From Chromatiales bacterium (lineage in GTDB: Bacteria > Pseudomonadota > Gammaproteobacteria > JAGRGH01), in assembly GCA_020445605.1 (NCBI GenBank), contig JAGRGH010000014.1, forward strand, positions 1-64,000: a stretch of DNA of 64,000 bases. The letters run 5' to 3'. This document shows, in pieces, positions 2,924-34,401 of this stretch (positions are counted from its first letter, which is position 1; the number at the start of each line of letters is the position of its first letter). The notes under the pieces are model-generated. The model was not told the DNA's origin, searched no databases, and worked only from the letters and a program-made list of their open reading frames with translations. Made by a program: the position numbers and the translations under genes.

Positions 2924-3646
2924 TTACTCTCTCCGAGCGCTGCGCTCGGTGCCCGCGCTGCCCGCGCTGCCCGCGCCGCCCGCGCTGCCCGCGCTGCCCG
3001 CGCTGCCCGCGCCCTCGAGGTGCTCCCGCAGTAGCTTCGCCAGCCACGTCAAGAATCTCCCGTTCGCTCCCGCGTCGACGTCGTCTCCGATCCCCGCGCT
3101 CGTCCGCAGCGCGTCGCCCGCGATCGCGTTGCCGAACAGCGCGAGGCCGGCGAGCAGGACGGTGAACAGCGTGTCCTCGGCGTCAGCCTTGGTGGCGCCG
3201 CACGCGCCGCCCGCGACCCGCATGGCGTGGATCGTCTGCGCGATGTGCTGCATGCGGACGCCGTAGCCGACCGGGTCGACGTCGTGGCCGCTGAGGTACA
3301 TCCACACCAGCAGGCGCGCGTGGCCCTCGTCGGCGAGGGCGCGGAACAGCCGCTCCATGAGCGACACCGCCTGGTCGTCGCCCAGATCGCCGCGCAGGGT
3401 GGCGAACACCTGGGCCTCGATGCGCCGCGCGGTGCGCTCGACCACGGCGCGGACCAGGCCGTCGCGGCTGCCGAAGTGGTGGAGGATCGCCGGGTGCGAC
3501 ATGCCGATCTCGTCGGCGAGCTGGACCAGGCGCAGCGAGTCGGGGCCCTGGCGCGCCAGCTGGGCCTCGGCGGCGTCCAGGATCAGCTCGCGTGCGTCGT
3601 CGGCGGTCCGCCGGATGCGCCCGGGTCGTGGCCCTTTGGTTCCCAT
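2924..3646 (-). CDS. TetR-family transcriptional regulator
   Basis: The 240-residue protein begins with a TetR DNA-binding domain: residues 15-60 include ARELILDAAEAQLARQGPD and the helix-turn-helix LADEIGMSHPAILHHFGSRDGL. The rest is helical, as expected for the ligand-binding and dimer region. The last 30 residues are an AGS/GAG low-complexity tail encoded by a short GC-rich repeat, and this tail is atypical for the family. Upstream lie two matching palindromes (3672-3711) that suit an autoregulatory operator. No divergent target gene of the same compositional style is present on the other side, because the sequence changes character there. Confidence 0.85.
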   Translation of the reverse strand: MGTKGPRPGRIRRTADDARELILDAAEAQLARQGPDSLRLVQLADEIGMSHPAILHHFGSRDGLVRAVVERTARRIEAQVFATLRGDLGDDQAVSLMERLFRALADEGHARLLVWMYLSGHDVDPVGYGVRMQHIAQTIHAMRVAGGACGATKADAEDTLFTVLLAGLALFGNAIAGDALRTSAGIGDDVDAGANGRFLTWLAKLLREHLEGAGSAGSAGSAGGAGSAGSAGTERSARRE

Positions 3647-3671
3647 GGTTCCGCCATCTTACACCCTGCTA

Positions 3672-3711
3672 TTGACAGTGCTGTCAACAGGTACTACTGA
3701 CAGAGCTGTAA
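3672..3711. promoter_or_regulatory. Paired palindromic operators upstream of the TetR gene
   Basis: A perfect palindrome with 7-base arms, TTGACAG-TG-CTGTCAA, lies at 3672-3687. A second, slightly degenerate copy, TGACAG-AG-CTGTAA, lies at 3698-3711. Their centres are 25 bases apart and the first is 26 bases upstream of the TetR ATG. This is the usual arrangement of a TetR autoregulatory site. TTGACA half-sites could also serve as -35 elements. Confidence 0.6.
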
Positions 3712-3720
3712 CTAGCTCGC

Positions 3721-3755
3721 CGCCAGCCGCCAGCCGCCAGCCGCCAGCCGCCAGC
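3721..3755. repeat. (CGCCAGC)5 tandem repeat at the compositional boundary
   Basis: Five exact copies of the 7-mer CGCCAGC separate the very GC-rich block on the left from the gammaproteobacterial-style block on the right. The SOR gene stop follows at 3771. A short repeat at the point where the two styles meet is a typical place for assembly misjoining. Confidence 0.85.
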
Positions 3756-3770
3756 AGCCGTCGGTCGGTG

Positions 3771-4781
3771 CTACTTGCCCTTCGGGCGACGCTTGGCGCC
3801 AGCGCTCTTGCCGACGCTGCCGCCGCTCAGCGCCGGGGCCATGCCGGCGAGAATCTCGCGGTAGCCGTGCTCGCGGAACATCGACTCGCTGATCATGACG
3901 CTGGGCATGCGCAGGCAGTTGTCGAGCACGCCGGGACCGTGCAGGAACAGGATCTCGGGTTTGACGTTCACATGCGGCATGCCGGACTGCGCCGAGCGCA
4001 GGTCCTCCCACTCGACCATGACCAAGTATTCGGCCGGCACCGTGTAGCCTTCCCAGACCTCGGCGGTGCGCTTGAGCTTTGGCCCGGACGGATCGATCAG
4101 GTCCTGCATCACGGATTCGACCGTCGCGTGCCCGCTGCCGAGCGTCGAAAGCCCCACGCGCTTGAGGATCTGGTAGCCGATCATGCCCGGCGTTTCCTTG
4201 AGCAGCGACATGGTCTGGATCTCGGCGTTCTCGAATTCGGCCTCCTTGCCGGGCCGCACGATGTGGCGCGCCAGCACCGTGACCGTCTCGCCGGAATCGA
4301 GCGCGAAGCCGCTGGTGTCGCCGGCGTTCTCGAACCCGCGCTTGATCATCTGGTTCTTCGAGATCAGCTTCGGCAGGTCCGAGGCGACCACGCGATAGAC
4401 CGGCTCCTCCGGCCCGTCGAGCAGCACGTCGCCGCACTTTGCGCAGGCGTCGACCACGACGTCCTCGTAGGTCTCGTGGAAACGCTCGTGCGCCTCGGGA
4501 CTCTCCCAGTAGGTGAACTGGTCTATCCAGATATGCGAGAGCTTCTCGCTCATGTCGGAACTCGCGCCCCAGCGCAGCCCCATCGGGCAGGTACCGAGCT
4601 GGCGCATCAGGTCGAAACCGCGGAAGCCCGGGGTGAGCGCCGTGGCGAGGCACATCTTCGAGCTCGCCTGCTTCATCATGCGCATCAGCGCGGGATCGTT
4701 GTTCACGAGCACCCGGTTGATCGCGACGTACAGGGGCGATTTCGGTTCGGCGTCGTAAAGCGCCTTGATGTCAGCGGACAT
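3771..4781 (-). CDS. sor: Sulfur oxygenase/reductase
   Basis: This 336-residue protein matches the archaeal/bacterial SOR family, which disproportionates elemental sulfur with oxygen to sulfite, thiosulfate and sulfide in the cytoplasm without external cofactors. The active-site residues are present: Cys44 in KMCLATALTPGFRGF (the persulfide cysteine), His98 and His102 in HERFH plus Glu126 in GPEEPVY (the mononuclear iron ligands), and Cys113/Cys116 in CAKC. RPGKEAEFENAEIQTM and AEYLVMVEWEDL also fit the family. The length is slightly above the usual roughly 310 residues because of a Lys/Arg-rich tail. A GGAGTGA ribosome-binding site precedes the ATG. It stands alone, with a short gap to the VOC gene upstream. 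Confidence 0.9.
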   Translation of the reverse strand: MSADIKALYDAEPKSPLYVAINRVLVNNDPALMRMMKQASSKMCLATALTPGFRGFDLMRQLGTCPMGLRWGASSDMSEKLSHIWIDQFTYWESPEAHERFHETYEDVVVDACAKCGDVLLDGPEEPVYRVVASDLPKLISKNQMIKRGFENAGDTSGFALDSGETVTVLARHIVRPGKEAEFENAEIQTMSLLKETPGMIGYQILKRVGLSTLGSGHATVESVMQDLIDPSGPKLKRTAEVWEGYTVPAEYLVMVEWEDLRSAQSGMPHVNVKPEILFLHGPGVLDNCLRMPSVMISESMFREHGYREILAGMAPALSGGSVGKSAGAKRRPKGK

Positions 4782-4846
4782 GCATCACTCCAGTCAGAAA
4801 CGACCCGTTGCGAGGCGGGCCAAGGTAACAAACTCGCGCGCGGAAT

Positions 4847-5263
4847 TCAGCGCGCAAACAATTGCGACGGATCGCGAAACGCCTTGAATTCCAGCGCGTT
4901 GCCGGCAGGATCACGAAAGAACATCGTCGCCTGCTCGCCGACCCGGCCGGCAAAGCGGATATGCGGCTCGATCTCGAACGCCACGCCGTGCTCGCTCAGC
5001 CGTTCGGCGAGTCGCTGCCAGTCGTCCCAGCCGAGCACCACGCCGAAATGCGGCACCGGTACGGCATCGCCGTCGACGCCATTGAACGCCTGCCGGCCGG
5101 CGAGCCCGGGCGCGTGATGCGCGACGATCTGGTGGCCATAGAGGTCGAAATCAACCCAGTCCGGCGCCGAACGACCCAGCCCGCAGCCGAGCACATCGCG
5201 GTAGAATCGGGTCGCGGCCTCCAGGTCATCCACCGGGAAGGCCAGATGGAACGGTGGTGTCAT
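4847..5263 (-). CDS. VOC (glyoxalase/bleomycin-resistance fold) protein
   Basis: The 138-residue protein starts [25 protein letters not shown], the first beta-alpha-beta unit of the vicinal oxygen chelate fold, and ends with [15 protein letters not shown], the usual C-terminal metal-ligand glutamate strand. [13 protein letters not shown] in the middle supplies another candidate histidine ligand. Members include glyoxalases, dioxygenases and antibiotic-binding proteins; the substrate here is unknown. It lies on the same strand as the SOR gene, 65 bases upstream of it, and could be cotranscribed with it. It diverges from the kinase gene. Confidence 0.8.
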
Positions 5264-5316
5264 GCGTGCAGCTCACTTCTAAGAACAGCGTGAACGAGCC
5301 TACCCCGATCACCGTG

Positions 5317-6285
5317 ATGAGTTCGGTACCCGACCCAAACGGGATCGCCGAACTCATTCTCCCGCAGTACGAGCTGCCGCGCTCGGCCGAGTGCACGTAC
5401 TTCGCGCGCGGCATGCACGACACCTACCGCGTCGACACAGAAGCGCAGCGCTTCTATCTGCGCGTGTACCGACCGCGCCTGCGCGACGAGGCGGCGATCC
5501 GTTATGAACTGGAACTCCTGCTGTTCCTGAAGAGCAAACACTTTCCCGCCGCCTGGCCGATGCAGACGAAAGACGGCCGGCCCTACACACTGATCGACGC
5601 CCCCGAGGGCCCGCGCATCGCCGTGCTGTTCATCGAGGCGCCGGGGCGCTCGGTCGGTCGCTGCCTGACCGAATCCCAAGCCCGCGCACTGGGTATGCGC
5701 GTGGCCGAGATGCACACCCTGTGCAAGGACTTTCGCACGCCGCACCGCCGCGCCGCGCTGGATGTCGAGACGCTGATCGACACCCCGATCAAGATGCTCG
5801 AACCACTGTTGCGCTCGCGCCCGAACGACCTGGCACTGCTCCAGCAGATCGGCACGACCCTGCGCCGCGCCGTCGCGGACCTGCCACGCAAGCCGCCGCT
5901 GTGGGGCGTGTGTGCCGGCGACATCCACACCGGCAATGTGCACTTTGGCGATGACGACGATCCGACCCTGTTCGACTTCGACCAGTGCGGACCCGGCTGG
6001 CGGGTGTTCGAGGTCGCGAAGTTCCTGCAATACGCGTTTACGGTCGACCTGCCCTCGAGCGTGCGCACGGCATTCGTTTCGGGCTACCAGTCGCTGCGCC
6101 CGCTCGATGCACGGGAGATCCGGCTGATCCCGGACTTCATGCAGGCCGCGGTGATCTGGATGATGGGTTTTCGCGCGGCGCTGCCCGAGGTGGTACCGCG
6201 CTCGACATTCTCGATCAGTTACTTTGATCGTCGCTTTGCGACACTGCGTGCCATCGCCGGCCGCGGCGCGGCCGTGCTGCGCTGA
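5317..6285 (+). CDS. APH-fold (aminoglycoside phosphotransferase/SrkA-like) kinase
   Basis: The protein of about 322 residues has the bilobal APH kinase signatures. RFYLRVYRP is in the nucleotide-binding lobe, VCAGDIHTGNVHF is the catalytic Brenner-type loop (Asp and Asn), and TLFDFDQCGPGWR carries the metal-binding DFD. Such proteins phosphorylate small molecules or protein Ser/Thr (SrkA/YihE type). The start is uncertain. GTG codons at 5254 and 5290 are also in frame, but the first overlaps the divergent VOC gene and none has a strong ribosome-binding site. The last 134 bases of this gene reappear, decayed, at 13967-14098, on the far side of the electron-transfer block. Confidence 0.75.
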   Translation: MSSVPDPNGIAELILPQYELPRSAECTYFARGMHDTYRVDTEAQRFYLRVYRPRLRDEAAIRYELELLLFLKSKHFPAAWPMQTKDGRPYTLIDAPEGPRIAVLFIEAPGRSVGRCLTESQARALGMRVAEMHTLCKDFRTPHRRAALDVETLIDTPIKMLEPLLRSRPNDLALLQQIGTTLRRAVADLPRKPPLWGVCAGDIHTGNVHFGDDDDPTLFDFDQCGPGWRVFEVAKFLQYAFTVDLPSSVRTAFVSGYQSLRPLDAREIRLIPDFMQAAVIWMMGFRAALPEVVPRSTFSISYFDRRFATLRAIAGRGAAVLR

Positions 6286-6373
6286 AGTTCAGAAAAACTC
6301 CGAGCGATTCAGAATTTCCGGCGACACGAGGAGGCACTATCTGGCAGTCAGGAGCGGATTGAGCTGATCATCA

Positions 6374-6400
6374 CAAAATCGCGACACATCCGTGTGTCGC
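6374..6400 (-). terminator. Intrinsic terminator after fccB
   Basis: A perfect 8-base stem, GCGACACA with loop TCCG and TGTGTCGC, occupies 6381-6400. Read on the minus strand it is followed by ATTTTG. It lies 32 bases past the fccB stop, so it likely ends transcription of the fcc genes. Confidence 0.6.
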
Positions 6401-6431
6401 ACAACGACCCTGAGTCATTGGGCCCCGCACC

Positions 6432-7709
6432 TCAGCCCCAGATGTCACCAACGATGTTGCGATACCAGCTGTGCGCGTACACGGCTTCGCGTTTGTGCAG
6501 AGCGGTATCGCCGTCGGCCGGGGATACCCCACCAGAGTTCTTGACGCTTACGATCTTTCCATCCACGAACTGATACACGCCGGCCACCGATATGCCGTGC
6601 TCGGGCGCGATCAGGCTGTAGCACGTGTTCACGTACGACGGCGGCGCCACGCTGTGTCCGTTCGCGCGCGCGGCAATGTTCGCAGCCGCGACCTTGCCCT
6701 GTGAGTTCGCCGCATAGCCAGATTTCGGCATGGCACCGGCGATGCAGGCATCGCCGATCACAAAGACATCCTTGTGCAGCGTGGACTCGAAGCTGCGTTG
6801 GTCGACCGGGCACCAACCGGATTCATCCACGAGCCCCGCGCGGGCTGCAATCGCGCCGGCCTTCTGCGCCGGGATGATGTTCGCGACATCGGCATGATGC
6901 TCTGCGAACTCGGTCATCACGATGCGCTTGCCGGTATCCACACCCAGAACCTTGCCGTCGTCGCTGCTCGACACCCAGGTAATCATGTCGCCGTAGTGCT
7001 GCTTCCAGCCAGCCTGGAACAGGCCCTGTTTGGAAAACTTGCTCTTGGCGTCCAAAATCATGATCTTCGAACGCGGCTTGTGGTGCTTGCAGTACAGCGC
7101 AATCTGCGCCGCTCGCTCGTATGGACCAGGCGGACAACGAAACGGGTTCGGCGGCGCCGCGATGATGACGGTACCGCCATCGGGCATGGACTCGATCTGC
7201 TTTTTGAGCAGCAGGGTCTGCGGCCCGGCCTTCCAGGCATGCGGCATGATCTCGGCCGCGGTCTCGCTATAGCCGGCAATGGAATCCCAGCGCAGGTCCA
7301 CGCCCGGGGACACAACCAGATAGTCATACCCCAACGTCTGACCATTGCCGAGCTTCACGCGCTTGGCAGCTGCATCGATCTCGCCAACCTCGGCGTGGAC
7401 GACCTTCACACCGCGCGCGGCCAACCCATCAAATCCGATCGTCAGCGACTCCATCGCGCGCTCGCCCGAAAGAACTTCGTTGCTCAACGGGCAGGAGATG
7501 AATTTTTCATCGCGGTCGATCAGCATAACCTCAATGCCCGGGTCGTACAGGCGCAGATACTTTGCGGCCGTCGCGCCACCATACCCCCCCCCAATGACCA
7601 CGACCCGCGCCTTCGCCCCCGCGCGGGCGGACAGCGGGATACCCGCCGCGCCCAGCAGCAGCCCGCCACCAAGCAGGCCGACGAATTCTCTGCGATTGAT
7701 TCGAGACAT
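6432..7709 (-). CDS. fccB: Flavocytochrome c sulfide dehydrogenase, FAD subunit
   Basis: The 425-residue protein begins with a Tat-type signal (NRREFVGLLGGG) cut near ARA-G. The FAD-binding GGGYGGATAAKYL follows. Cys73 in ISCPLSNEV sits at about mature position 42, where the family links FAD covalently. Cys192 in PFRCPPGPYERA and Cys363 in NTCYSLIAPEHGISVAGVY are the pair that forms the redox-active disulfide where sulfide is oxidised. The C-terminal part matches the FCSD flavin-binding domain. It works in the periplasm with FccA and passes electrons from sulfide to c-type cytochromes. fccA lies directly upstream with a 27-base gap. Confidence 0.93.
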   Translation of the reverse strand: MSRINRREFVGLLGGGLLLGAAGIPLSARAGAKARVVVIGGGYGGATAAKYLRLYDPGIEVMLIDRDEKFISCPLSNEVLSGERAMESLTIGFDGLAARGVKVVHAEVGEIDAAAKRVKLGNGQTLGYDYLVVSPGVDLRWDSIAGYSETAAEIMPHAWKAGPQTLLLKKQIESMPDGGTVIIAAPPNPFRCPPGPYERAAQIALYCKHHKPRSKIMILDAKSKFSKQGLFQAGWKQHYGDMITWVSSSDDGKVLGVDTGKRIVMTEFAEHHADVANIIPAQKAGAIAARAGLVDESGWCPVDQRSFESTLHKDVFVIGDACIAGAMPKSGYAANSQGKVAAANIAARANGHSVAPPSYVNTCYSLIAPEHGISVAGVYQFVDGKIVSVKNSGGVSPADGDTALHKREAVYAHSWYRNIVGDIWG

Positions 7710-7736
7710 GTGCCGATCCTCTGAGCAAATCTTCGG

Positions 7737-8327
7737 TTACTTCTGGCTAGCGTAAAAGGCCGCCAGCGCCAGCTTGTCCTCTTCAGACAGGCCCGTGAAC
7801 ATCGCCCGCATCACGGATGCACCGGCGGAGATTCCGACCGCCGGGTTCTGGATGTCCTGCATCTGAAAATACAGATAGTCCGCGTACTGGCCGTTCAGGT
7901 TCGGCGTGGTCGGGCTGGGCGAGACGCCGGTCGGGCCATGGCAGGCCGAGCAGAAGCGGCTGGCTTGCAACTCGCCACCATGCGCGGCAAGGCCTGTATC
8001 CACAGTCTGTGCGGCAGGTTTCCACGGCTGGGCCGCGAAGAAATCCGCCATGGCGTTGATCTCCTCGTCCGAGTAGCCGCGTGCAAGCCGCCCCATGATG
8101 GTCGAGGCGCGCTCGCCACTCTTGTAGGCGAGCATGGCGCTACGGATGTAGGTCGCCGGAAGCCCCGCGATCAGCGGCGCCTGCCCCTGGCTTTGGCCAA
8201 GCGTGCCATGGCAACCCGCACAAGGATGACTCACCATGGCCGCGGCGGGCGACTCGGCTCGAACCGGCGTGATCGCGAGCGCGATAGGTCCGACGATTGC
8301 GGCCAGAACAATGTTCTTTATGCTCAT
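7737..8327 (-). CDS. fccA: Diheme cytochrome c subunit of sulfide dehydrogenase
   Basis: This 196-residue exported protein has a signal peptide (about residues 1-24) and two class I heme motifs. CAGCH is near residue 36 and CSACH is near residue 127. Each is followed by the cytochrome c4-type pattern with a distal Met candidate (for example STIMGRLARGYSDEEI and SVMRAMFTGLSEEDK). It is the electron-accepting partner of FccB and lies immediately upstream of it. Its own promoter may be in the 209-base gap behind mtrB, which holds a large hairpin. A plain cytochrome c4 is the alternative, but the fccB linkage argues against that. Confidence 0.88.
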   Translation of the reverse strand: MSIKNIVLAAIVGPIALAITPVRAESPAAAMVSHPCAGCHGTLGQSQGQAPLIAGLPATYIRSAMLAYKSGERASTIMGRLARGYSDEEINAMADFFAAQPWKPAAQTVDTGLAAHGGELQASRFCSACHGPTGVSPSPTTPNLNGQYADYLYFQMQDIQNPAVGISAGASVMRAMFTGLSEEDKLALAAFYASQK

Positions 8328-8473
8328 TACCGATTTCTCCGAAATTCATGTGGCGTGTCGACCGGCAACCTTGCCGTAGGAAGCCTGGGTCAATGGGGAT
8401 GTTGATCATATGAACCCCGATAATTCACGCGAAAGCGGGCTTGGCGAAATCTAGTCTCGCGACATCGGGCACC

Positions 8474-8520
8474 GAGACCGACCGGGACCCAGACCACCCG
8501 CGCGGTCCGGGTCCGGTCTC
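8474..8520. other. Long imperfect hairpin between mtrB-like gene and fccA
   Basis: GAGACC at 8474 pairs with GGTCTC at 8515. The arms between them (CGGGACCC/GACC and GGTCCGGGTCC) pair further, giving a strong GC-rich hairpin 17 bases beyond the mtrB-like stop. There is no T-run, so it may be an mRNA-stabilising or partial-termination element rather than a clean terminator. Confidence 0.5.
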
Positions 8521-8536
8521 GACCCGCCTGACAACA

Positions 8537-10663
8537 TCACTCGAACATGTGCTTGTATCGAACGCCCACGAATGTAGCCGACTGCTTTGGATCCTGCAGC
8601 ACGGTCGTGCCGTCGTTCGTCGTGCCGTAGGTAAACGGGGAACCATCGGCGAACTGCCAGCTCCAGTCGTTGGTGCGCCAGCGCTCGTGGATGACGTCCA
8701 CACGCACCAGTGAACTCTTTGACAGCGAGTACTCGGCGAACGCATTGAGGATCGTCGCCTTGTTGACGACGTCATCCAGCGGACCGCCGCTGGCGGCGTT
8801 GTAGTCCGTATCCGGATCACCGTTTTCACCGATCGGGATGACCGTGTCGTTGTACTCGCTCTTGGTACGGGTATAGCTCGCGTTCGCACCGACCTTGAGC
8901 CGACCCATGGGCTTGCCTTCAATACCCAGGCCCACGGAGGTTCCGGTATCGCGCAGCGTACTGTCACGGTCGAGTTCGTGGTTTTCGGTAACGCGATCCC
9001 AGCTGCCGTTGAATTGATCGGCCTCGGTGCGGTCATACGCGGCCCAGGCCGTGACGTGCCAATCCGCGTTGATTGCAAAGTCCGCGTCCACGGAATAGAA
9101 GTTTGCCGTGCCTTCGCTCAGTCCATATCGGTTTGAGCCGGGGCCGTAGTCGTCCTGCGAATGCTCTGCGGTGAACTGCAGGCCGAGGTTCTCCGTTGGC
9201 GTCCAGTTCACCGTTCCGCGAATCTTGTCTCGATCACGGTCGGCAATGTTGATCGGGTTGATGCCCGAGCCCGCCACGCCTTCCGAATGCACGGCCGGCG
9301 CATAGTCCGACCCATCGCGTTTACTGTGCAGGTAGGCAATGGAGCCGTTGATGGTCTCGGACATCGCCTTGCGCAACTGGATGCGGTAGGTGGTCTCGTC
9401 GATGTCCGCACGCCACGGCACGTAGCGCTCGTCATCCAGCCCGTCCATGTCGCCGTCGGCGCCGAACGGCACCGTGCGATCCTGCTCGCGGTAGTCCACA
9501 CCGGCGATCAGGCTGAGTCCATGGCCAAAGGTGTAGGTACCCTCGACCTTGCCGGTCAGCGTCTCGTAGTCCAGCGGGGTGCTGTGAACACCGCTGCCCG
9601 TGGTAACGACCAACCACTCTGGCGTCTTCTCGTTGACCCGGTGATAGTTCACGCTCGCGGCCAGATGCAGCATCGGCAATGGCCGAGCCGTGAGTCCAAA
9701 GTACAGCTGTGTCGTATCCAACTCGCCGTCGAGGCTCGATGGAGCGATCGGGTCGGCCAGGCCCGGAATGTCCGCGGTCGGCAGATGCTCGTCCTGGGTC
9801 GCATGCGTGTACGAGGCACGGAAGGTCGCGCGCGTCGTGGGCGTAACACTGAAACCACCGTTCAGGAACACCTGATGCGCCTCGTTGCTCATCGGCAGCG
9901 ACAGGTAGTATTCCGAGCCCGGCGACATGATGCCGCGGTAGCTCGTGACCAGGTCGTGGTCATTGTCATACCAGCTGCCGTAGTAACCGCCCGATAGCTG
10001 CAACTGGTCGCCGACGTAGTTCAGTGTGGCTTCGACCTGTTTGATCGTGGAATCGATCGGCTCGACCGCGAACTCGGGCTGGCCGCCACGCCCCCAGTGG
10101 CGCGTGCCGTCCTTTTCCTCGTTCTTGAAGTCGATCTTGATGTTGAACTGGGGCGTGATGTAGTAAAAGCCGTCCAGCCCGATCTTTTCACGGTCCGTGC
10201 CGATATGCCGGTCGGCACCCGTACCCGGCACATAGCCATCGGCAGAATCGGGCACCATTTGCTCGGTCGTGCCAAAGCCCGCCATGCCCGTATTCACCGT
10301 CCACGGCGCGTTGCGCACGATGCGGTCGTAACTCAGGCCCAGTCCGAACCTGCCCTGCTGCTGGTAGTGGATGTCGAACTCGCGACTGTCGATGCCGAGG
10401 TCACGCACCTTGCCCGTGAGCCAGGAGCCATTGCTCAGATCGCGCCCACGCAGGTCCGCGTCCAGCAGCAGGATGGTCTCGTCGTCGCGAATGCCGTCGA
10501 ACATGCCGAACTGCTCGCGCTCACCGCTCCAGTGACCGACGCCGACCGACACGCTACTGCCCTTGAAGTCCAGCCCGCCTTCGGCCTGCACGGAAGTCGC
10601 AAGCACCGTCGCGATGGCCGCGGAGATCGCGGTCAGTACCCAGGTCTGTTTGTTGGTTTTCAT
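8537..10663 (-). CDS. mtrB: MtrB/PioB-family outer-membrane beta-barrel
   Basis: The 708-residue protein has a signal peptide cut near VQA-EGG. A long chain of alternating amphipathic strands rich in Tyr, Trp and Asp turns follows, and it ends with an aromatic strand (VGVRYKHMFE) typical of outer-membrane barrels. Internal phrases such as GLGLSYDRIVRNAPW and RIQLRKAMSETINGSIAYLHSKRDGSDY fit the decaheme-associated MtrB/PioB family. The barrel encases the decaheme MtrA so that electrons cross the outer membrane. The mtrA gene is 18 bases upstream. A GGGGAG ribosome-binding site precedes the ATG. No outer-surface MtrC-type cytochrome follows, which resembles the PioAB/MtoAB iron-oxidation modules more than the Shewanella set. 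Confidence 0.88.
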   Translation of the reverse strand: MKTNKQTWVLTAISAAIATVLATSVQAEGGLDFKGSSVSVGVGHWSGEREQFGMFDGIRDDETILLLDADLRGRDLSNGSWLTGKVRDLGIDSREFDIHYQQQGRFGLGLSYDRIVRNAPWTVNTGMAGFGTTEQMVPDSADGYVPGTGADRHIGTDREKIGLDGFYYITPQFNIKIDFKNEEKDGTRHWGRGGQPEFAVEPIDSTIKQVEATLNYVGDQLQLSGGYYGSWYDNDHDLVTSYRGIMSPGSEYYLSLPMSNEAHQVFLNGGFSVTPTTRATFRASYTHATQDEHLPTADIPGLADPIAPSSLDGELDTTQLYFGLTARPLPMLHLAASVNYHRVNEKTPEWLVVTTGSGVHSTPLDYETLTGKVEGTYTFGHGLSLIAGVDYREQDRTVPFGADGDMDGLDDERYVPWRADIDETTYRIQLRKAMSETINGSIAYLHSKRDGSDYAPAVHSEGVAGSGINPINIADRDRDKIRGTVNWTPTENLGLQFTAEHSQDDYGPGSNRYGLSEGTANFYSVDADFAINADWHVTAWAAYDRTEADQFNGSWDRVTENHELDRDSTLRDTGTSVGLGIEGKPMGRLKVGANASYTRTKSEYNDTVIPIGENGDPDTDYNAASGGPLDDVVNKATILNAFAEYSLSKSSLVRVDVIHERWRTNDWSWQFADGSPFTYGTTNDGTTVLQDPKQSATFVGVRYKHMFE

Positions 10664-10681
10664 GTTCGTCTCCCCTGGTGA

Positions 10682-11668
10682 TCAGCGACGGAACCGGCCG
10701 GCGGTCGCACTGTTCTGCGTGCTGTTTCCGCCGTGGATGTTCGTGTGGCAGTTCAGGCAGCCGCGACCCACCGTGCCCATGAGGCTGGAACTGGTCGAGC
10801 GCGAGCCCGGGAGCGTGGGCAATTGGCCCGGATGACTCGTATGGCTGTGGCATTCCTGGCACAGATACGGTGGCCGGTACTTGAGCATGTTCGCAACGAT
10901 CGTGCCGTGCGGGTTATGGCAGATCGTGCAGTCCTCGGTCACCGGCTGATGGTTGTGCACGAACGGACCGCGCTTCTCGGCATGGCACTGGTAGCAGGTC
11001 TCGTTGACGCTGTCCTTGATCAGGTTCTTCGTGCCCGCCGAGCCGTGCGGGTTGTGGCAGTCCGAACAGCCCATCTCACCTTCCAGCACCGGGTGGTGCG
11101 AAGGCCGGTGCAGTTCTGAGCGCTTGTCCTTGTGGCAGGTGAAGCAGACCTCGGTCTGCGTTTCCTTGTCGCGCGCCTTGTCATGCGCCTCGTGAACCGT
11201 GTGGCAGCTCGCGCAGGCAACACCGCGCGACTCGTGCGCGCTGCCAGCCCAGAACATGTGCTTGCCGCCCTTGTGGCAGCCGGTGCAAACCTCGTTCTTC
11301 TCGTCGGCGCTGGCGTGCTTGAGGCTCTTGGGATGCGAGGCCTTGGGATTCTTCAGATGCTCGCTGGCGTCGCCGTGGCAGGCCTGACAGCCACCGTTCG
11401 CCGCCGGTGTACGCCCGTCGGCCTTGACCCCGTGCTTACTGAGCCAGATCGCCGGCTCATTGCTGTCAGGGCCGGCGGTCGGCACCCTGGGGGCATCCGG
11501 ATTGGAGCCGTTATGGCAGTTCATGCACAACTGGCCGGAATCAATCATTGCCGTGATTGGGTTTACGGCTGGCGTATCCGCAAGAGCCAGGCCCGGCAGG
11601 GCCAGGGACAGCAACCACGCGGCAACAGCAGCACTTCGGCGTGCGAGCACCATGAGCCCCTCCTTCAT
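10682..11668 (-). CDS. mtrA: MtrA/DmsE-family decaheme c-type cytochrome
   Basis: The 328-residue protein has an N-terminal signal peptide (to about LALA-DT) and exactly ten CxxCH heme motifs: CMNCH, CQACH, CTGCH, CASCH, CFTCH, CSDCH, CYQCH, CTICH, CQECH and CLNCH. This count and the length match MtrA/PioA/MtoA periplasmic decahemes, which plug into the MtrB barrel and form a heme wire across the outer membrane. Whether electrons run inward (Fe(II) or mineral oxidation) or outward cannot be told from sequence. In this sulfur-oxidising context, inward flow or sulfide-linked export are both conceivable. Confidence 0.92.
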   Translation of the reverse strand: MKEGLMVLARRSAAVAAWLLSLALPGLALADTPAVNPITAMIDSGQLCMNCHNGSNPDAPRVPTAGPDSNEPAIWLSKHGVKADGRTPAANGGCQACHGDASEHLKNPKASHPKSLKHASADEKNEVCTGCHKGGKHMFWAGSAHESRGVACASCHTVHEAHDKARDKETQTEVCFTCHKDKRSELHRPSHHPVLEGEMGCSDCHNPHGSAGTKNLIKDSVNETCYQCHAEKRGPFVHNHQPVTEDCTICHNPHGTIVANMLKYRPPYLCQECHSHTSHPGQLPTLPGSRSTSSSLMGTVGRGCLNCHTNIHGGNSTQNSATAGRFRR

Positions 11669-11799
11669 CCAGTGTTATGCGTCGCCCGGCCGGGGAGACC
11701 GACGCGACGTGGGCCAGAGGCCCTGGTTTGGTTCTAGGGCGGGAATGCGCGCACGACGATCGACCGGCGTGTCCCGTTGCCAGAAATGTAGAGCGACGG

Positions 11800-11875
11800 A
11801 ATTAAAAAAAAATTAATTTCCTGTCGCGGCCTGGCAACTTGTTGCGTTGTTGACATATGTCAACGTGCAACGGCG
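11800..11875. promoter_or_regulatory. Divergent control region between mtrA and the response regulator
   Basis: The 315-base gap between the two divergent genes holds an AT-rich near-palindrome (AATTAAAAAAAAATTAATT, 11800-11818) in otherwise GC-rich sequence. It also holds a perfect 14-base palindrome, TTGACATATGTCAA, at 11850-11863, flanked by GTTGC/GCAAC half-sites. The palindrome sits 121 bases before the chosen response-regulator start. It is the best candidate binding site for that regulator or another dimeric factor. No clear -10 box was fixed. Confidence 0.5.
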
Positions 11876-11983
11876 CAACACCGGGGGGGCAGACCCTCTC
11901 GGGGTTCTACAATTTCACAGAGGGCCACGGCCCGTTGAAGCAGTCTGTCCAAGTACCCGGGCTTGCCCATGGAGTCTTCCGCA

Positions 11984-12649
11984 ATGCGATTGCTGCTGGT
12001 CGACGATGACCCCGCGCTCACCGACGGACTTTCCCGTTTGCTCGCCGGAATTGGCTACGAGGTGGAACTGGCGGGCGATCTGGCGATGGCACGGTCTGCG
12101 CTGAAGCGCGGCGGTTTTGATGTCGCGATCCTCGACCTCGTGCTCGCCCGCGGCAACGGACTGCAGCTGCTGGCCGAATTCAAATCACTGTTCAGCACGC
12201 TTCCGGTGCTGGTCTTGAGCGGCTGCGGCACGCTGCGCGACAAGTTGCGCGCGTTCGAACTTGGCGCGTCCGACTACCTGGCGAAACCGTTTGAATTCCC
12301 GGAACTGGGCGCGCGGCTCAAGGCCATCTGTCGACGGCACGCAGAGCCGGACCGGCATCTGCTGCGCTTTGCCGATCTGGAACTGAACCTGCACACCCAC
12401 ACCGCGACCCTGCGCGGCGAGGAAGTCGCGCTGTCACGCCGCGAGTTCTGCATCCTGCGCAGCCTGGTCGAGCACCCCGGCCAGATCGTGACCCGCGCCG
12501 TGCTGGAGAGAGCCTTTGACCGGCAGGTTCGCGAACTCGCCAGCAACAGCATCGAAGTTCACATCCACAACCTGCGCAAGAAACTCCCGGCGAAGGTCAT
12601 TCGTACCGTTCACGGTCTCGGTTACACGCTGTCAGTACCCGCAGCGTGA
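11984..12649 (+). CDS. OmpR/QseB-family response regulator
   Basis: The 221-residue protein has a receiver domain with the acidic pocket VDDD (residues 6-9), phosphoacceptor Asp51 in VAILDLVL, and the conserved Lys in YLAKPFEFPE. A winged-helix effector domain follows (LSRREFCILRSLVEHPGQIVTR to NLRKKLPAKVIRTVHGLGYTL). The ATG at 11984 is chosen because a GGAG box lies 9 bases upstream; an ATG at 11969 is possible. The stop overlaps the kinase GTG by four bases. It diverges from mtrAB-fcc, so control of the electron-transfer genes is the natural inference. Confidence 0.9.
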   Translation: MRLLLVDDDPALTDGLSRLLAGIGYEVELAGDLAMARSALKRGGFDVAILDLVLARGNGLQLLAEFKSLFSTLPVLVLSGCGTLRDKLRAFELGASDYLAKPFEFPELGARLKAICRRHAEPDRHLLRFADLELNLHTHTATLRGEEVALSRREFCILRSLVEHPGQIVTRAVLERAFDRQVRELASNSIEVHIHNLRKKLPAKVIRTVHGLGYTLSVPAA

Positions 12650-13944
12650 ACTCGCTGCACCATCGGCTGTTCTCGATTTTAGGCGCACTGGCGGTCATCG
12701 TCTGGACCGTGGTGCTGGTCATCGCGGCCGTGATGGCAGGCGAACGTGAGCGCGCACACTTTGACGCAGAACTCGCGCGACTCGCGTCATCTCTTGCCGG
12801 TGGCGGGCTGAACGCGGAAGCCACGCCACCGGAACCAGACCACCCGAGGTTGCGGGTTTCGGTTCATCGTGCGACCGGAGACCCACAAGCCAGGAATGGT
12901 CGCATCGCGTTCGACTGCGGGCCGCCCGGAACGCCCCGCGACATCTCGCTCGACGGTGAACCATGGCGTTGCCAGAGCGTCGCGGGCGCGGACGGCACCG
13001 TGGCCGCAGTCGCGTCGCCGATTGACCTACGAGAAGCGCGGGCGGCCGACGAGCTTGCGCATTCCCTGTGGCCGATCGTGCTCGGCCTGCCGCTTTCCAT
13101 CGTTGCTTTGTGGCTGGGCATTCCGGTCTGTCTCGGCCCGCTGAACCGCGTGGCGCGAGAGATTTCAGCCCGCGATGCCGATCACCTCGATCCCGTGCAG
13201 ATGCTCGACACGCCGCGCGAAATCCGCCCGCTGGTAGCCGAGCTGAATCGCCTGCTGTCGCGGCTCGAAGAGGTCTTCAGCCGTTCGAGCCGTTTTGCGT
13301 CCGATGCCGCGCATGAACTGCGTGCGCCGGTGACTGCGATTCGCGCGCAGGCCGAAGCCGGACTTGCCGCGGCAACCGATGCTGAACAACGGCAGTCGCT
13401 CGAACAGATCCTGGGCGTCGCCAACACCTGTAGCGGGTTGGTGGAGCAGATTCTGGTGCTGGCCCGACTCGAGCCCGAGGTCCTGATGGATATGGGCGAC
13501 GAGGTCGATCTGCAGGCGGCCGCACAGTCCGTGCTCGGTCTGATCGCGCCGGCTGCGTTCGCGAAAGACATCGAGCTGTCCTACGACGAATCCGGGCCAG
13601 CGAGCGTGCACGGCAACGCGGAACTGGTTCGTGTGTTGCTGCACAACCTGCTCGACAACGCGATTCGCTGTACGCCGATCGGTGGCGATGTCCGGATCTC
13701 GATTCGCGCTGACGCGCGATCGATCGGCGTGTCGGTGGAAGACACCGGACCGGGGATCCCGGCCGCGGACCGCGAACGTGTGCTGCAGCGATTCTGCCAG
13801 CTGCCGGAATCCGTGGGTGCCGGCTATGGTATCGGACTATCCATCGTCGAACGCATCGCCCACGCGCATGACGCTCACATCGCACTGGACGACGGGCCCA
13901 ACGGCAGGGGGCTGCGGGTGAGCGTGCGGTTTCCGCGTCCCTGA
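12646..13944 (+). CDS. Sensor histidine kinase paired with the response regulator
   Basis: The 432-residue protein has two membrane helices (about residues 10-31 and 140-165) that enclose a short periplasmic sensor of about 105 residues. A HAMP-like linker follows, then the dimerisation box SSRFASDAAHELRAPVTAI with the phosphoacceptor His. The ATPase motifs are N-box LLHNLLDNAIRCTP, G1 VEDTGPGIP and G2 GAGYGIGLSIV. The architecture resembles QseC/TctE-type kinases. It starts with a GTG that overlaps the regulator stop (GTGA). The sensor has two Cys residues (DCGPP and WRCQSV) that could respond to redox state; this is only a suggestion. Confidence 0.9.
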   Translation: MNSLHHRLFSILGALAVIVWTVVLVIAAVMAGERERAHFDAELARLASSLAGGGLNAEATPPEPDHPRLRVSVHRATGDPQARNGRIAFDCGPPGTPRDISLDGEPWRCQSVAGADGTVAAVASPIDLREARAADELAHSLWPIVLGLPLSIVALWLGIPVCLGPLNRVAREISARDADHLDPVQMLDTPREIRPLVAELNRLLSRLEEVFSRSSRFASDAAHELRAPVTAIRAQAEAGLAAATDAEQRQSLEQILGVANTCSGLVEQILVLARLEPEVLMDMGDEVDLQAAAQSVLGLIAPAAFAKDIELSYDESGPASVHGNAELVRVLLHNLLDNAIRCTPIGGDVRISIRADARSIGVSVEDTGPGIPAADRERVLQRFCQLPESVGAGYGIGLSIVERIAHAHDAHIALDDGPNGRGLRVSVRFPRP

Positions 13945-29472: not shown

Positions 29473-29883
29473 ATGGAGCCATCGATAATCGCGGCAATCA
29501 TCGGAGCACTTGCAACAGTGTTGGCTGTGGTAATTGGTTGGTGGCTGCCGCAAAGAAAAGCAACACGCTCCAAGTCCGCAGAATCAATCAAATTCCAGCC
29601 AGATAAAGATGGCATCTATTTCATGCAATATTTGCTGCATGATGCTTACGAGCAACAAACACCGCTATCAACTACCGAGCTTGCGGAACATCACAGAGAT
29701 TACGCGCCACTGGAATTGGAAGTGAAGCTCATAGGCCTTGAAAATCATGGCTATGTTCAGCGGGTAACTCGAAAGAACACAGGCATGGGCAAATGGCAAA
29801 TCACCCCAAAAGGAGTCGAGTTCATGTTCAAGCACGGGCATCAATTACACGATTTGGTTGAGGAAAGTCGGAGTAATGCCTAA
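29473..29883 (+). CDS. Membrane-anchored winged-helix-like protein in a gene cassette
   Basis: The 136-residue protein starts with one membrane helix (IIAAIIGALATVLAVVIGWWLP), then a basic linker. A cytoplasmic domain follows (LSTTELAEHHRDYAPLELEVKLIGLENHGYVQRVTRKNTGMGKWQITPKGVEFMFKHGHQ) that looks like a winged-helix domain, with the final ITPKGVEF strand typical of such domains. I do not recognise a named family. The ATG follows a core site directly and the stop codon TAA is part of the next attC, as expected for an integron cassette. Its base composition is far more AT-rich than that of the chromosomal genes. A membrane-tethered sensor or regulator role is only inferred. Confidence 0.65.
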   Translation: MEPSIIAAIIGALATVLAVVIGWWLPQRKATRSKSAESIKFQPDKDGIYFMQYLLHDAYEQQTPLSTTELAEHHRDYAPLELEVKLIGLENHGYVQRVTRKNTGMGKWQITPKGVEFMFKHGHQLHDLVEESRSNA

Positions 29884-29967
29884 CAAGTGCATCATGTCAC
29901 TGCCCTTCGGGCAGCTGGGACGTGCCACCGCTGCGCGGCGGCCCGCCCCATATGCTTGTCGTTATAC
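29878..29967 (+). other. attC-like integron recombination site
   Basis: The 90-base element begins GCCTAAC (inverse core, RYYYAAC) and ends GTTATAC (core, one mismatch to GTTRRRY). The next bases inward, AAGTGCAT and ATGCTTGTC, pair with a few unpaired bases, as attC arms do. The centre has small hairpins such as CTGCCC-TTC-GGGCAG. It sits exactly between two genes on the same strand. Confidence 0.65.
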
Positions 29968-29985
29968 GACTATGGAGAGTTTTAG

Positions 29986-31617
29986 GTGCGAATAAGTCGC
30001 GTTGAAATATCAAACTTCAGGGCACTGCGAACAATCGCAGTGCCTATGACACAATTTAGCGTGCTTCTTGGTGAAAATGATGTTGGGAAAACGTCATTCC
30101 TATACGCAATCGAAAACTTTTTCGTTGCTAAGAAACTGAGCGATCCAAAGGACTGGTACAAAAGAGACACGAATAACGATATAAGGATCACCATCACTTT
30201 CTCGGACATCCCTGATGATGAATCCCTGAATGATCTGAAAAGAAGTGACGAAACAATTATCGTTAATCGGATCTTTGCTTTTAATAAGCCACCGGAAACG
30301 AAAGTCATACTGGACGACAATTCGGCAATAACCATTGCAAAACCTATTGCAGCCAGATGGTTTTCCAATGATAACTTTCACTTCATACCTGTAAGACGGG
30401 ACTTGTCAGTCCAGTTTTCTATGAATAAGACCGCCATGCTCGGAAAATTGCTTCGCGCCAAGATGAAGCAGGCAATTGTAAACGCCGGTGCTGAAACACC
30501 ACTACAGGAAGTTGCGAGAATACTCCAAGAGGCTGTCGACGAACCACGAGAAACGATGGAAGCGTTTCTCAAAGAACAATTGAGCAACGAAACAGTAAAA
30601 CTGGGGTTTGATGATCTAGAAATTGATCCTACTGAAGGAGTTAAATTTGCAGTCACTCTTTCAGATGACCGAGTTGAGAGTATAGAAATTCAAGACCGTG
30701 GCGCCGGTACGCAGAATAATCTAATAATTGCATTGTTTCGGTTACTTGCTACTTCAAACTTAGAAGCAGAGTTCATTTTCGCAATGGAGGAACCTGAAAA
30801 TAGTCTTCACCCAAAAGCTCAGCGCCAGCTTTTGAGCGTGATTCAAGAGATTAGTAAATCCACACAAGTGATCGTTACAACGCACTCCCCAGTATTTATT
30901 GATCGTAGCCAGTTTGAAAGTAATATTTTGCTTACTCGTACTACAGCAGGAAACACAGTTGCAAAGGTCTTTGATTCAGAAGACCTACCTTCAATTAGAA
31001 CGGATTTAGGAATTCGAGCCTCGGATGCTCTTCTAAAAGGTGGCGGCAACTGCGCTATCCTCGTGGAAGGTTCCACTGAGGAAGACGGATTCCCAACATT
31101 TATGGAAATGCTCGGCCTCAGCGAGTTCGAGTTAGGTATTGCCATTATTAATATGGGTGGTTCCGATTTCCCCAAAGCTCATGGCATCGTGAAACTTCTT
31201 GGCGGTTACGACATCCCATGCGTGGTGGTTCTGGATAGAGATGCATATAAAACCGCAGACGATCTCAACAGGATTAAAGGAGATCAACTTCCAAACCTCA
31301 GAGAAGTTTACTGTCTTCAGAATGGAACCATCGAAGATTACTACCCGCCAAGCGTCGTAGCTGAAATCATCAACCGCACCTTGTCGCCGAGTACCGAAGT
31401 TCAAGAACATGAATTGAACGGAGACTGGTCCGGCCAAGACCGACTAAATGCATATAAACGCATCATGCATGAGCACGAGGCAGGGAGTTCTATCGAGTAT
31501 TTAAAAAGAGCCCTTGGTGGCCAAGGTACTAAAATTCTTCAAGAGCAAAAATGTGATGTCCCCGACGAGATCAAGTTAATTCTTGAACGTGTAGCTGAAA
31601 TAGCGAGAGATGGCTGA
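29986..31617 (+). CDS. OLD-family ATP-dependent nuclease
   Basis: The 543-residue protein has an ABC/SMC-type ATPase: Walker A LLGENDVGKTSFLYAI (residues about 27-42), signature DRGAGTQNNLIIAL, Walker B FIFAMEEPENSLHPKAQ and switch TTHSP. A C-terminal Toprim domain follows (ILVEGSTEEDGF, then VVLDRDAY) that would carry nuclease activity. OLD proteins act in phage defence, alone or with a partner helicase (GajA/GajB), but no UvrD-like partner is adjacent. The GTG start has a GGAGAG box. The GC content is low compared with flanking genes. It lies between a GTTATACGAC site and its inverse GTCGTATAAC (31623-31632), consistent with an integron cassette. Confidence 0.88.
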   Translation: MRISRVEISNFRALRTIAVPMTQFSVLLGENDVGKTSFLYAIENFFVAKKLSDPKDWYKRDTNNDIRITITFSDIPDDESLNDLKRSDETIIVNRIFAFNKPPETKVILDDNSAITIAKPIAARWFSNDNFHFIPVRRDLSVQFSMNKTAMLGKLLRAKMKQAIVNAGAETPLQEVARILQEAVDEPRETMEAFLKEQLSNETVKLGFDDLEIDPTEGVKFAVTLSDDRVESIEIQDRGAGTQNNLIIALFRLLATSNLEAEFIFAMEEPENSLHPKAQRQLLSVIQEISKSTQVIVTTHSPVFIDRSQFESNILLTRTTAGNTVAKVFDSEDLPSIRTDLGIRASDALLKGGGNCAILVEGSTEEDGFPTFMEMLGLSEFELGIAIINMGGSDFPKAHGIVKLLGGYDIPCVVVLDRDAYKTADDLNRIKGDQLPNLREVYCLQNGTIEDYYPPSVVAEIINRTLSPSTEVQEHELNGDWSGQDRLNAYKRIMHEHEAGSSIEYLKRALGGQGTKILQEQKCDVPDEIKLILERVAEIARDG

Positions 31618-32718: not shown

Positions 32719-34401
32719 TCAGCGCACCGTGAACCCGTCGCGGGCCCGAACGATGGAGTCACCACTGGACTGGTGAAAACGGACTTCGTATTCGCCGGGC
32801 GCTGTCAGTCCCCGGAATGTGAAGGTGCCGTTGCGCACCTGCCCGGTTTTCATCCACTGTTTGTACGCACCGCCGTAGGCGCCCTTTGGCGTGATGGTGA
32901 TCCATTCGTCGCTGCGCTGGGCCGGCAGATCGAACACGTCGACGACGATGTCCTCGCCCACGGCGTAGGCGTTCTTACGCGCATCTAGACGCGGCCCATT
33001 GCCGGGCCCCGGAACCTGCACGTAGATTTCACGATCGACGACCTTCGGGGTCGCGGCCGACAGTGTTCGGTCGAGCGACACCCGCCGCAGTGCGGAATAG
33101 TCGGTGCCGGCACCGTACTCGGCCCGAATGCGCAGATCAGTCACGTTCGCCAGCACATCACCGAGCGTGCGGGCACCGCCGGACAACCGCCAACCGGCGC
33201 CGCTGAGCGGCAGGGTGAATTGCCGCCAGTTCGTGGAGTGGTCGGGGGCGATGTCGTAGCGGGCGCTCATGGGGCCGCTGCTGACGATGACGTCTCCGCG
33301 TGCGCCGTATTCGTCGGGGCCGTAGTAGTCCCCGCCCCAGCTCCGCTTTTCGAAGGATAGTTGCGCATATCCGCGCCAGTCGCCGTGGAAGGAGGCGGGT
33401 GCGATGTAATAGCTGGTCTGGCCCTCGCCCGGCGGCGCCACGGTGATGGCTTCGCCTTCGACCGCGAGCGTGCCGTAATTCACGGTCCACTCCGACCGTG
33501 CCGCGGTGCTGGTGGAACCGACCCGGAACCGGTCCCGCGCACGGACGATCCGGTCGCCGTTGGACTGATGGAAACGCACTTCGTACTCGCCGGGTTCCGA
33601 CAGGCCCCGGAAGGTGAATGTGCCGGTCTTCTGCTTGTTCGTGTATTGCCACTGCCGGTAGGAACCCTCGGCGGCGTCGGCCGGCACGACCGTGACCCAC
33701 TCGTCACCGCGCTGCGCGGGCAGATCGAACACCTCGACGGCGACGGCCTCGCCGACCGCGTAGACATCTTTGCGCGCGGTGACCCGGGGCTGCCCAGCGG
33801 GGGGCGGGAGCTGAACGTAGATTTCACGATCGACCTCCTTCGTCTGCGTTGCCGCACCCGACACGAACGTGAAGCTGGCGCCCCAGCGCCCATAGCGACT
33901 GGAGGTGATGCCGTTGCGCACGGAGCCCTCGTAGCTGTCCTGACCGCGCCGGACCTCGAAGGTCACCCGCCCACCTGCGGCCTCGGTGATGACGCCCGAG
34001 TGGGCCGCGGCCAGGCAGATGGATGAATCCGTTGTATAGACGAGCGTGCCCCAGATCGAGCCGGCCGCCGAGCCCGCGCGCGGCGGGCAGCAGTAGCTGA
34101 AGCGCTCGCCAAACCGATCGTTGACGCGAAAGGAATTGGTCGACTGATTCCACGCGATGTCGGCCCGGCATTGGTCCGCCTGTGCCTTGCCCGACGGAGT
34201 CGCGCGGGCGTTACCGGCGGCATCGAAAAGTCCGGCCGTGTAGTCGTCGCGCGGATGGGACAGCAGCTCCATCAGCTCGATCGATTTCTCGAGATGATTG
34301 ACGAGCTGATCTGGATACGACTGCGCTTGAACTGAAACAGACAACACGAGAGCCGCGCCTGACACCAGCGCACGAGCGATGAACCTGTTTCTCTTTTTCA
34401 T
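32719..34401 (-). CDS. Secreted LCCL / laminin-B multidomain protein
   Basis: The 560-residue protein has a signal peptide (ALVSGAALVLSVSVQA-Q). Residues about 75-185 form an LCCL domain (SIWGTLVYTTDSSICLAAAH then GSVRNGITSSRYG). A beta-sandwich module follows, from VDREIYVQL to IVRARDRFRV (about 188-293). Residues about 300-440 match laminin B (domain IV): SYYIAPASFHGDWRGY, RGDVIVSSG and VLANVTDLRIRAEY. A second copy of the beta-sandwich module (VDREIYVQV to GFTVR) ends the protein. These domains are mostly known from animal extracellular proteins and bind glycans or other proteins. The upstream coiled-coil gene is separated by two bases and is probably its partner. Confidence 0.8.
   Translation of the reverse strand: MKKRNRFIARALVSGAALVLSVSVQAQSYPDQLVNHLEKSIELMELLSHPRDDYTAGLFDAAGNARATPSGKAQADQCRADIAWNQSTNSFRVNDRFGERFSYCCPPRAGSAAGSIWGTLVYTTDSSICLAAAHSGVITEAAGGRVTFEVRRGQDSYEGSVRNGITSSRYGRWGASFTFVSGAATQTKEVDREIYVQLPPPAGQPRVTARKDVYAVGEAVAVEVFDLPAQRGDEWVTVVPADAAEGSYRQWQYTNKQKTGTFTFRGLSEPGEYEVRFHQSNGDRIVRARDRFRVGSTSTAARSEWTVNYGTLAVEGEAITVAPPGEGQTSYYIAPASFHGDWRGYAQLSFEKRSWGGDYYGPDEYGARGDVIVSSGPMSARYDIAPDHSTNWRQFTLPLSGAGWRLSGGARTLGDVLANVTDLRIRAEYGAGTDYSALRRVSLDRTLSAATPKVVDREIYVQVPGPGNGPRLDARKNAYAVGEDIVVDVFDLPAQRSDEWITITPKGAYGGAYKQWMKTGQVRNGTFTFRGLTAPGEYEVRFHQSSGDSIVRARDGFTVR

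Follow-up and report, generated by a model that had tools for sequence, protein, structure and literature searches.

The stretch of DNA analysed here (the window, 64,000 nucleotides) is part of contig 14 of a Chromatiales genome of 3.36 Mb in 63 contigs, rated 100% complete. Four consecutive genes on its minus strand, running from position 11668 down to 6432, form the row mtrA-mtrB-fccA-fccB, with gaps of 18 bp between mtrA and mtrB, 209 bp between mtrB and fccA and 27 bp between fccA and fccB. The first gene, mtrA (10682-11668), encodes a c-type cytochrome of 328 aa with ten CxxCH motifs and a signal peptide-like N-terminus, which scored 259 bits against the DmsE/MtrA family model TIGR03508 (cut-off 192) and had 6r2q_A as its nearest solved chain (1e-62). 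The product of mtrB (8537-10663), a 708-aa outer-membrane beta-barrel predicted to sheath MtrA, matched PF11854 with 428 bits and TIGR03509 above its cut-off. Its AlphaFold2 model was a barrel (pLDDT 85) for which Foldseek returned the Mtr-complex barrel 6r2q_B as best PDB match (TM 0.84, E 7e-38), the runner-up matches being ordinary TonB-dependent receptors with TM values of roughly 0.4. Judged from this model, MtrB belongs to the known Mtr barrel fold, and the locus holds both elements of a porin-cytochrome conduit, namely a ten-CxxCH MtrA-family cytochrome and an adjoining gene for an MtrB/PioB barrel.

The two genes that follow encode a flavocytochrome c sulfide dehydrogenase (FCSD). FccA, the cytochrome subunit (7737-8327, minus strand), carries two CxxCH motifs, and its best match among all PDB chains was the FCSD cytochrome of A. 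vinosum, 1fcd_C (2e-28); like 1fcd it is diheme, the cytochrome chain of the T. paradoxus enzyme 5n1t being short (102 aa). FccB, the FAD subunit (6432-7709, minus strand), exceeded the cut-offs of PF21706 and PF09242 and matched the T. paradoxus chain 5n1t_A best (1e-142). Cysteines 73, 192 and 363 of FccB aligned with C42, C161 and C337 of the A. vinosum protein (1fcd), which we take to be the FAD-linking and redox-active cysteines, and were invariant across the eight FccB sequences aligned. The sequence thus contains the flavoprotein domains, the key cysteines and the adjoining c-type cytochrome gene expected of an FCSD, and the subunits, the cofactor-binding and redox cysteines and the fccA-fccB order are those of the A. 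vinosum and T. paradoxus enzymes; what differs from known FCSD is that fccAB is encoded here directly after mtrAB. Family matches and coordinates therefore bore out the original prediction of a decaheme mtrA and an mtrB barrel gene followed on the same strand by fccA and fccB. Its statement that a surface cytochrome is missing also held, since no MtrC/OmcA homologue was detected with TIGR03507 either at the locus or in the whole genome.

The gene content of the genome was probed family by family. It encodes one MtrB and four FccB proteins, and no tetraheme quinol dehydrogenase of the NapC/CymA/NrfH family was found with PF03264, a model that matched in E. coli as expected. A conventional quinol entry to MtrAB was thus not found in this genome within the NapC/CymA/NrfH family. 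The oxidases comprise one CtaD-type and one CcoN-type protein, to which three more members of the COX1 family are added, and NapA, a periplasmic nitrate reductase, is followed by a NapG-like protein, so labelled for its resemblance to a ferredoxin-type protein of the Thiobacillus locus L013 described below. The organism looks like a sulfur oxidiser that respires oxygen and probably nitrate as well. As to the other fccAB copies, one (L095:4094-8142) is preceded on the same strand by the gene of an octaheme cytochrome (PF13447) and that of a TPR protein, and another (L097, on C63 of the same genome) adjoins apparent cytochrome c maturation genes, as does fccAB in the loci L013, L135 and L136; in the Thiobacillaceae rows of this kind a heptaheme cytochrome gene stands in between (PF02335 in L013).

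Two kinds of known MtrAB system offer a comparison. The FccA of Shewanella is not related to FCSD but is a fumarate reductase of the flavocytochrome c3 type. In the MtrCAB system of Shewanella oneidensis a decaheme MtrA is likewise held in an MtrB barrel (6r2q), and there too a periplasmic flavocytochrome, FccA, can deliver electrons to MtrA (PMC8805035), whereas the genome analysed here differs in having neither MtrC/OmcA nor CymA. The MtoAB proteins of Sideroxydans, Gallionella and Thiomonas and the PioAB proteins of Rhodopseudomonas, the former proposed and the latter required for the uptake of electrons from extracellular Fe(II) (PMC5566968, PMC8805035), share with the window an MtrAB core without a surface cytochrome and an adjacent gene for a small periplasmic carrier. 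Their partner is MtoD/CymA/MtoC or the iron-sulfur protein PioC, whereas that of the window would, judging from the genes, be an FCSD. Exchangeable partners are a well-known trait of MtrAB cores, whose modularity has been discussed by Baker et al. 2022 (PMC8805035).

We then compared the best 80 MtrA loci in GTDB genomes. In nearly all of them mtrB adjoins mtrA, and in most of them additional cytochromes are encoded nearby, the partners varying from a monoheme cytochrome, alone or with a tetraheme one, to cytochromes with seven to nine hemes or a diheme and tetraheme pair. In the MtrB tree the window grouped with L007, L010, L009 and L014 (SH-aLRT 96), with L007 as its closest relative (SH-aLRT 99). 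Three of these four nearest relatives (L009, L010 and L014) have mtrA, mtrB, a diheme cytochrome c gene and a tetraheme gene in direct succession, the tetraheme protein having been assigned to NapC by a family test for L009 and by heme count, size and position for L010 and L014. In L007 no cytochrome gene follows mtrB, so that it has neither fccAB nor the diheme and tetraheme pair. The slot filled by that pair in L009, L010 and L014 is occupied by fccA and fccB in the window; all of these rows share a diheme cytochrome gene right after mtrB, but in the window it is a true FccA, followed by FccB, in a genome without a NapC-family protein. We considered whether FccA could be a relic of the diheme carrier of those loci and rejected this, because its match to the carriers was weak (57-68 bits, phmmer) compared with that to an FccA of its own genome (167 bits, BLAST) and because its best PDB match was 1fcd_C; it shares 47% identity with its counterpart FccA in the paralogue on C30. 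A search for other genomes of the window's family or order gave its own genome alone, and no further MtrB was detected in the order of the L007 genome.

Among the best 80 MtrA loci, the order mtrA-mtrB-fccA-fccB recurred only in Thiobacillus sp. RI_561 (L013), where mtrA, mtrB, a DUF302 gene, fccA, fccB, a heptaheme cytochrome gene and the gene of an ABC-transporter ATPase, which looks like CcmA, lie on one strand. MtrB was present in 10 of the 117 genomes of this family (Thiobacillaceae), and among the mtrAB regions fetched from them only one besides L013 has fccB nearby. This locus, L113, has fccAB and mtrAB 2.4 kb apart in the row napB, fccA, fccB, monoheme cytochrome, NapC, mtrA, mtrB, ccmE; as a whole (L113:617-15513) it is a compact one-strand cytochrome island of nap, fccAB, cytochrome, NapC, mtrAB and ccm genes. 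In a sample of the window's class, 8 of 369 genomes (its own included) encode MtrB, and fccAB adjoined mtrAB in none of the regions fetched from the others. The adjacency is therefore not confined to this contig, so that the original prediction is not refuted on its own terms and its interpretation is supported in part, and the survey for a conserved gene order that had been suggested with the original prediction gave a divided answer: the order is found again in L013, with one extra gene, and more loosely in L113, but was not kept in the four closest MtrB relatives.

The phylogenies point to more than one origin of this arrangement. The FccB proteins of L013 and L113 fell inside a Thiobacillaceae clade (100/99), and that of the window grouped with two copies from its own genome (94/92 for the three), the node joining it to the nearest paralogue being weak (82/78); in the MtrB tree L013 and L113 were distant from the window. 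Since the window and the two Thiobacillaceae loci thus belong to unrelated MtrB and FccB clades, the pairings look like separate events, and the grouping of the window FccB with its own-genome copies suggests that mtrAB may have acquired a spare fccAB copy as its neighbour. L013 was also considered as proof of conservation, a use weakened by the unit of fccAB, heptaheme cytochrome and ccm genes that occurs without mtrAB in the Thiobacillaceae loci L135 and L136. Moreover, FccB is present in 36 of the 50 MtrAB genomes scanned, nearly always outside the flanks examined around mtrAB. For both reasons L013 and L113 are no strong proof of a functional link.

We also estimated how often such neighbourhoods would arise at random. 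With the four fccAB units of this genome, about 1e-4 same-strand starts would be expected in the first 210 bp downstream of mtrB, a figure calculated after the adjacency had been noticed and for a window chosen because of it. Across the 80 MtrA loci, random placement predicted 0.4 loci with an FccB within 9 kb of MtrA and 0.015 loci in which a same-strand fccAB begins no more than 1.3 kb downstream, one being observed in each case, and for the 10 Thiobacillaceae 0.125 were predicted with FccB within 5 kb and 2 observed; these expectations are rough, overlap (L013 counts in all three) and ignore the clustering of cytochrome genes.

mtrB and fccA may be transcribed together, although the 209-bp gap between them (8328-8536, minus strand) carries a GC-rich hairpin. 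As this hairpin lacks a T run and its z-score was only -1.5, its reading as a terminator or structured RNA was not supported, and the gap, flanked by genes of the same strand, contains no clear promoter and no clear terminator. A scan of positions 3600-12000 returned no sigma-70-like promoter on either strand. On the 3' side of fccB, a terminator-like hairpin with a 9-pair stem and a T-rich tail was found at 6380-6401 (minus strand), to be read in the light of the about equal number of terminator-like sites that the scan gives in shuffled sequence. Upstream of mtrA, the divergent plus-strand genes of an OmpR-type response regulator (11963-12649; PF00072 and PF00486) and its partner sensor histidine kinase (12646-13944; PF00512 and PF02518) were identified; a regulator divergent from mtrA was seen again in L038, L046, L051, L069 and L079. 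The perfect, strandless 16-bp palindrome GTTGACATATGTCAAC lies between mtrA and the regulator gene (11849-11864) and, allowing up to 3 mismatches, has no other match in the window, where 0.09 would be expected; it is a possible operator. An operator common to the mtrA and fccA upstream regions was considered, but the fccA side resembles the palindrome only loosely.

Beyond fccB, a plus-strand kinase gene (5254-6285) is followed, 1.7 kb from fccB, by a minus-strand gene for a sulfur oxygenase reductase (3771-4781; PF07682, 213 bits), whose nearest solved relative is PDB entry 9rdn (2e-154), all other family members of known structure being much more distant. This gene provides a sulfur-metabolism context, but its inclusion in an mtrAB-fccAB operon was rejected because of the intervening kinase gene.

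In our best reading of these sequences, FccAB would have replaced the quinol dehydrogenase as the partner of MtrAB. We tentatively favour, at somewhat less than even confidence, the view that the four genes make up one module leading electrons from sulfide in the periplasm to the outside of the cell. FccB would oxidise periplasmic sulfide at its FAD/disulfide site and transfer the electrons gained to FccA with its two hemes, as is known for homologues of these proteins; FccA would then hand them to the decaheme MtrA, which would conduct them inside the MtrB barrel towards an external acceptor, for instance metal oxides, soluble shuttles or a neighbouring cell. Because such a route neither contacts the quinone pool nor pumps protons, its likely role is not that of an energy-yielding respiration on its own but that of clearing sulfide or disposing of excess electrons under a shortage of oxygen and nitrate, while the sulfur would be retained and oxidised later on. 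This outward flow explains the pairing best, since FccAB stands where relatives keep an electron-transfer partner, and a direct link between FccAB and MtrAB is newly supported by the absence of a NapC/CymA homologue from the genome. It is further favoured by the intact catalytic and heme motifs of the adjacent same-strand genes, by the low probability of their placement together with the comparable row of L013 and the looser one of L113 in unrelated clades, and by the precedent of the Shewanella periplasmic FccA feeding MtrA (PMC8805035). Several observations weigh against it: MtrC/OmcA, usual in outward conduits, is absent; L007 has no fccAB downstream and the adjacency occurs in one of the 80 MtrA loci; the FccB found in 36 of 50 MtrAB genomes nearly always lies outside the examined flanks of mtrAB; the direct route conserves no energy; and the hairpin-bearing 209-bp gap, the weak FccB paralogue node and the post hoc nature of the chance estimate count on the same side. 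That the arrangement is a dedicated sulfide-to-outside conduit, in which FCSD replaces the quinol dehydrogenase, bypasses the quinone pool and has been assembled more than once, is a more doubtful proposition.

The missing surface cytochrome, as in the MtoAB and PioAB systems, would suit electrons moving inwards just as the neighbouring sulfur oxygenase reductase gene would. MtrAB would then draw electrons from outside the cell, supplied by Fe(II) or iron-sulfide minerals, and FccAB would oxidise the sulfide set free, both donors feeding periplasmic cytochromes that lead to the cbb3/aa3 oxidases or Nap, and the genes would lie together since both donors come from one mineral. With CtaD, CcoN and NapA in the genome such a route would conserve energy, and Thiomonas offers a known case of an MtoABD set that lacks a redox partner in the inner membrane (PMC5566968). 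However, inward flow does not require a partnership between FccAB and MtrAB, and the row encodes no exit carrier besides FccA; we regard it as somewhat unlikely. Slightly less likely still, in our judgement, is that mtrAB and fccAB are independent units, each in its usual role, that have become neighbours by chance. The three further fccAB copies among the four FccB of the genome, the tendency of c-type cytochrome genes to cluster, the absence of the order from the closest relatives and the 209-bp gap are all compatible with this, as are the Thiobacillaceae fccAB, which form their own unit with heptaheme and ccm genes even without mtrAB, and the single FccB seen within 9 kb of MtrA where about 0.4 per 80 loci was predicted. 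Against mere coincidence stand the tight same-strand order, the independent repeat in Thiobacillus L013, where only about 0.015 in 80 loci was expected on the rough estimate above, and the lack of NapC in the genome.

If outward flow of sulfide electrons is correct, sulfide removal would be tied to extracellular electron transfer by a minimal set of four genes, a periplasmic dehydrogenase would be seen to supply MtrAB directly, so that the quinone pool is not its sole source of electrons, and sulfide-driven metal reduction and sulfide-fed electrodes would become accessible to genetic work. The metabolic idea itself has been put forward before. A 2025 Nature paper, in its main text, proposes Sqr and FccBA together with MtrCAB for iron-oxide-dependent sulfide oxidation on the basis of gene co-occurrence in two Rhodoferax species, the cultured example there using reverse Dsr and Geobacter-type cytochromes; no linkage of FccBA and MtrAB in a gene cluster was seen in that main text (PMC12545173). 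The two cases thus differ in that co-occurrence, Sqr and MtrC are involved there, whereas here FccAB adjoins MtrAB and MtrC is missing. Our literature search, with supplements and most subscription papers outside its range, likewise found co-occurrence only and no published single cluster of mtrAB and fccAB. The claim that no characterised system joins the two modules accordingly stands as regards the gene pairing, of which no report was found, but not as regards the idea, and, as far as the main text of that paper goes, what appears to be new is the mtrAB-fccAB pairing, the combination of sulfide oxidation with MtrCAB having already been proposed (PMC12545173).

Three further loci of the window deserve mention. 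A low-GC3 island at 29473-31614 (plus strand) encodes an OLD/GajA/AriA-like ATPase-TOPRIM protein preceded by a small gene, possibly a defence gene, for which no partner was recognised. At 50317-51378 (minus strand) lies the gene of a stand-alone HSDR_N-domain protein with a GC3 below that of its neighbours, and the product of 32722-34401 (minus strand) combines LCCL and laminin-B domains, which are better known from eukaryotes.
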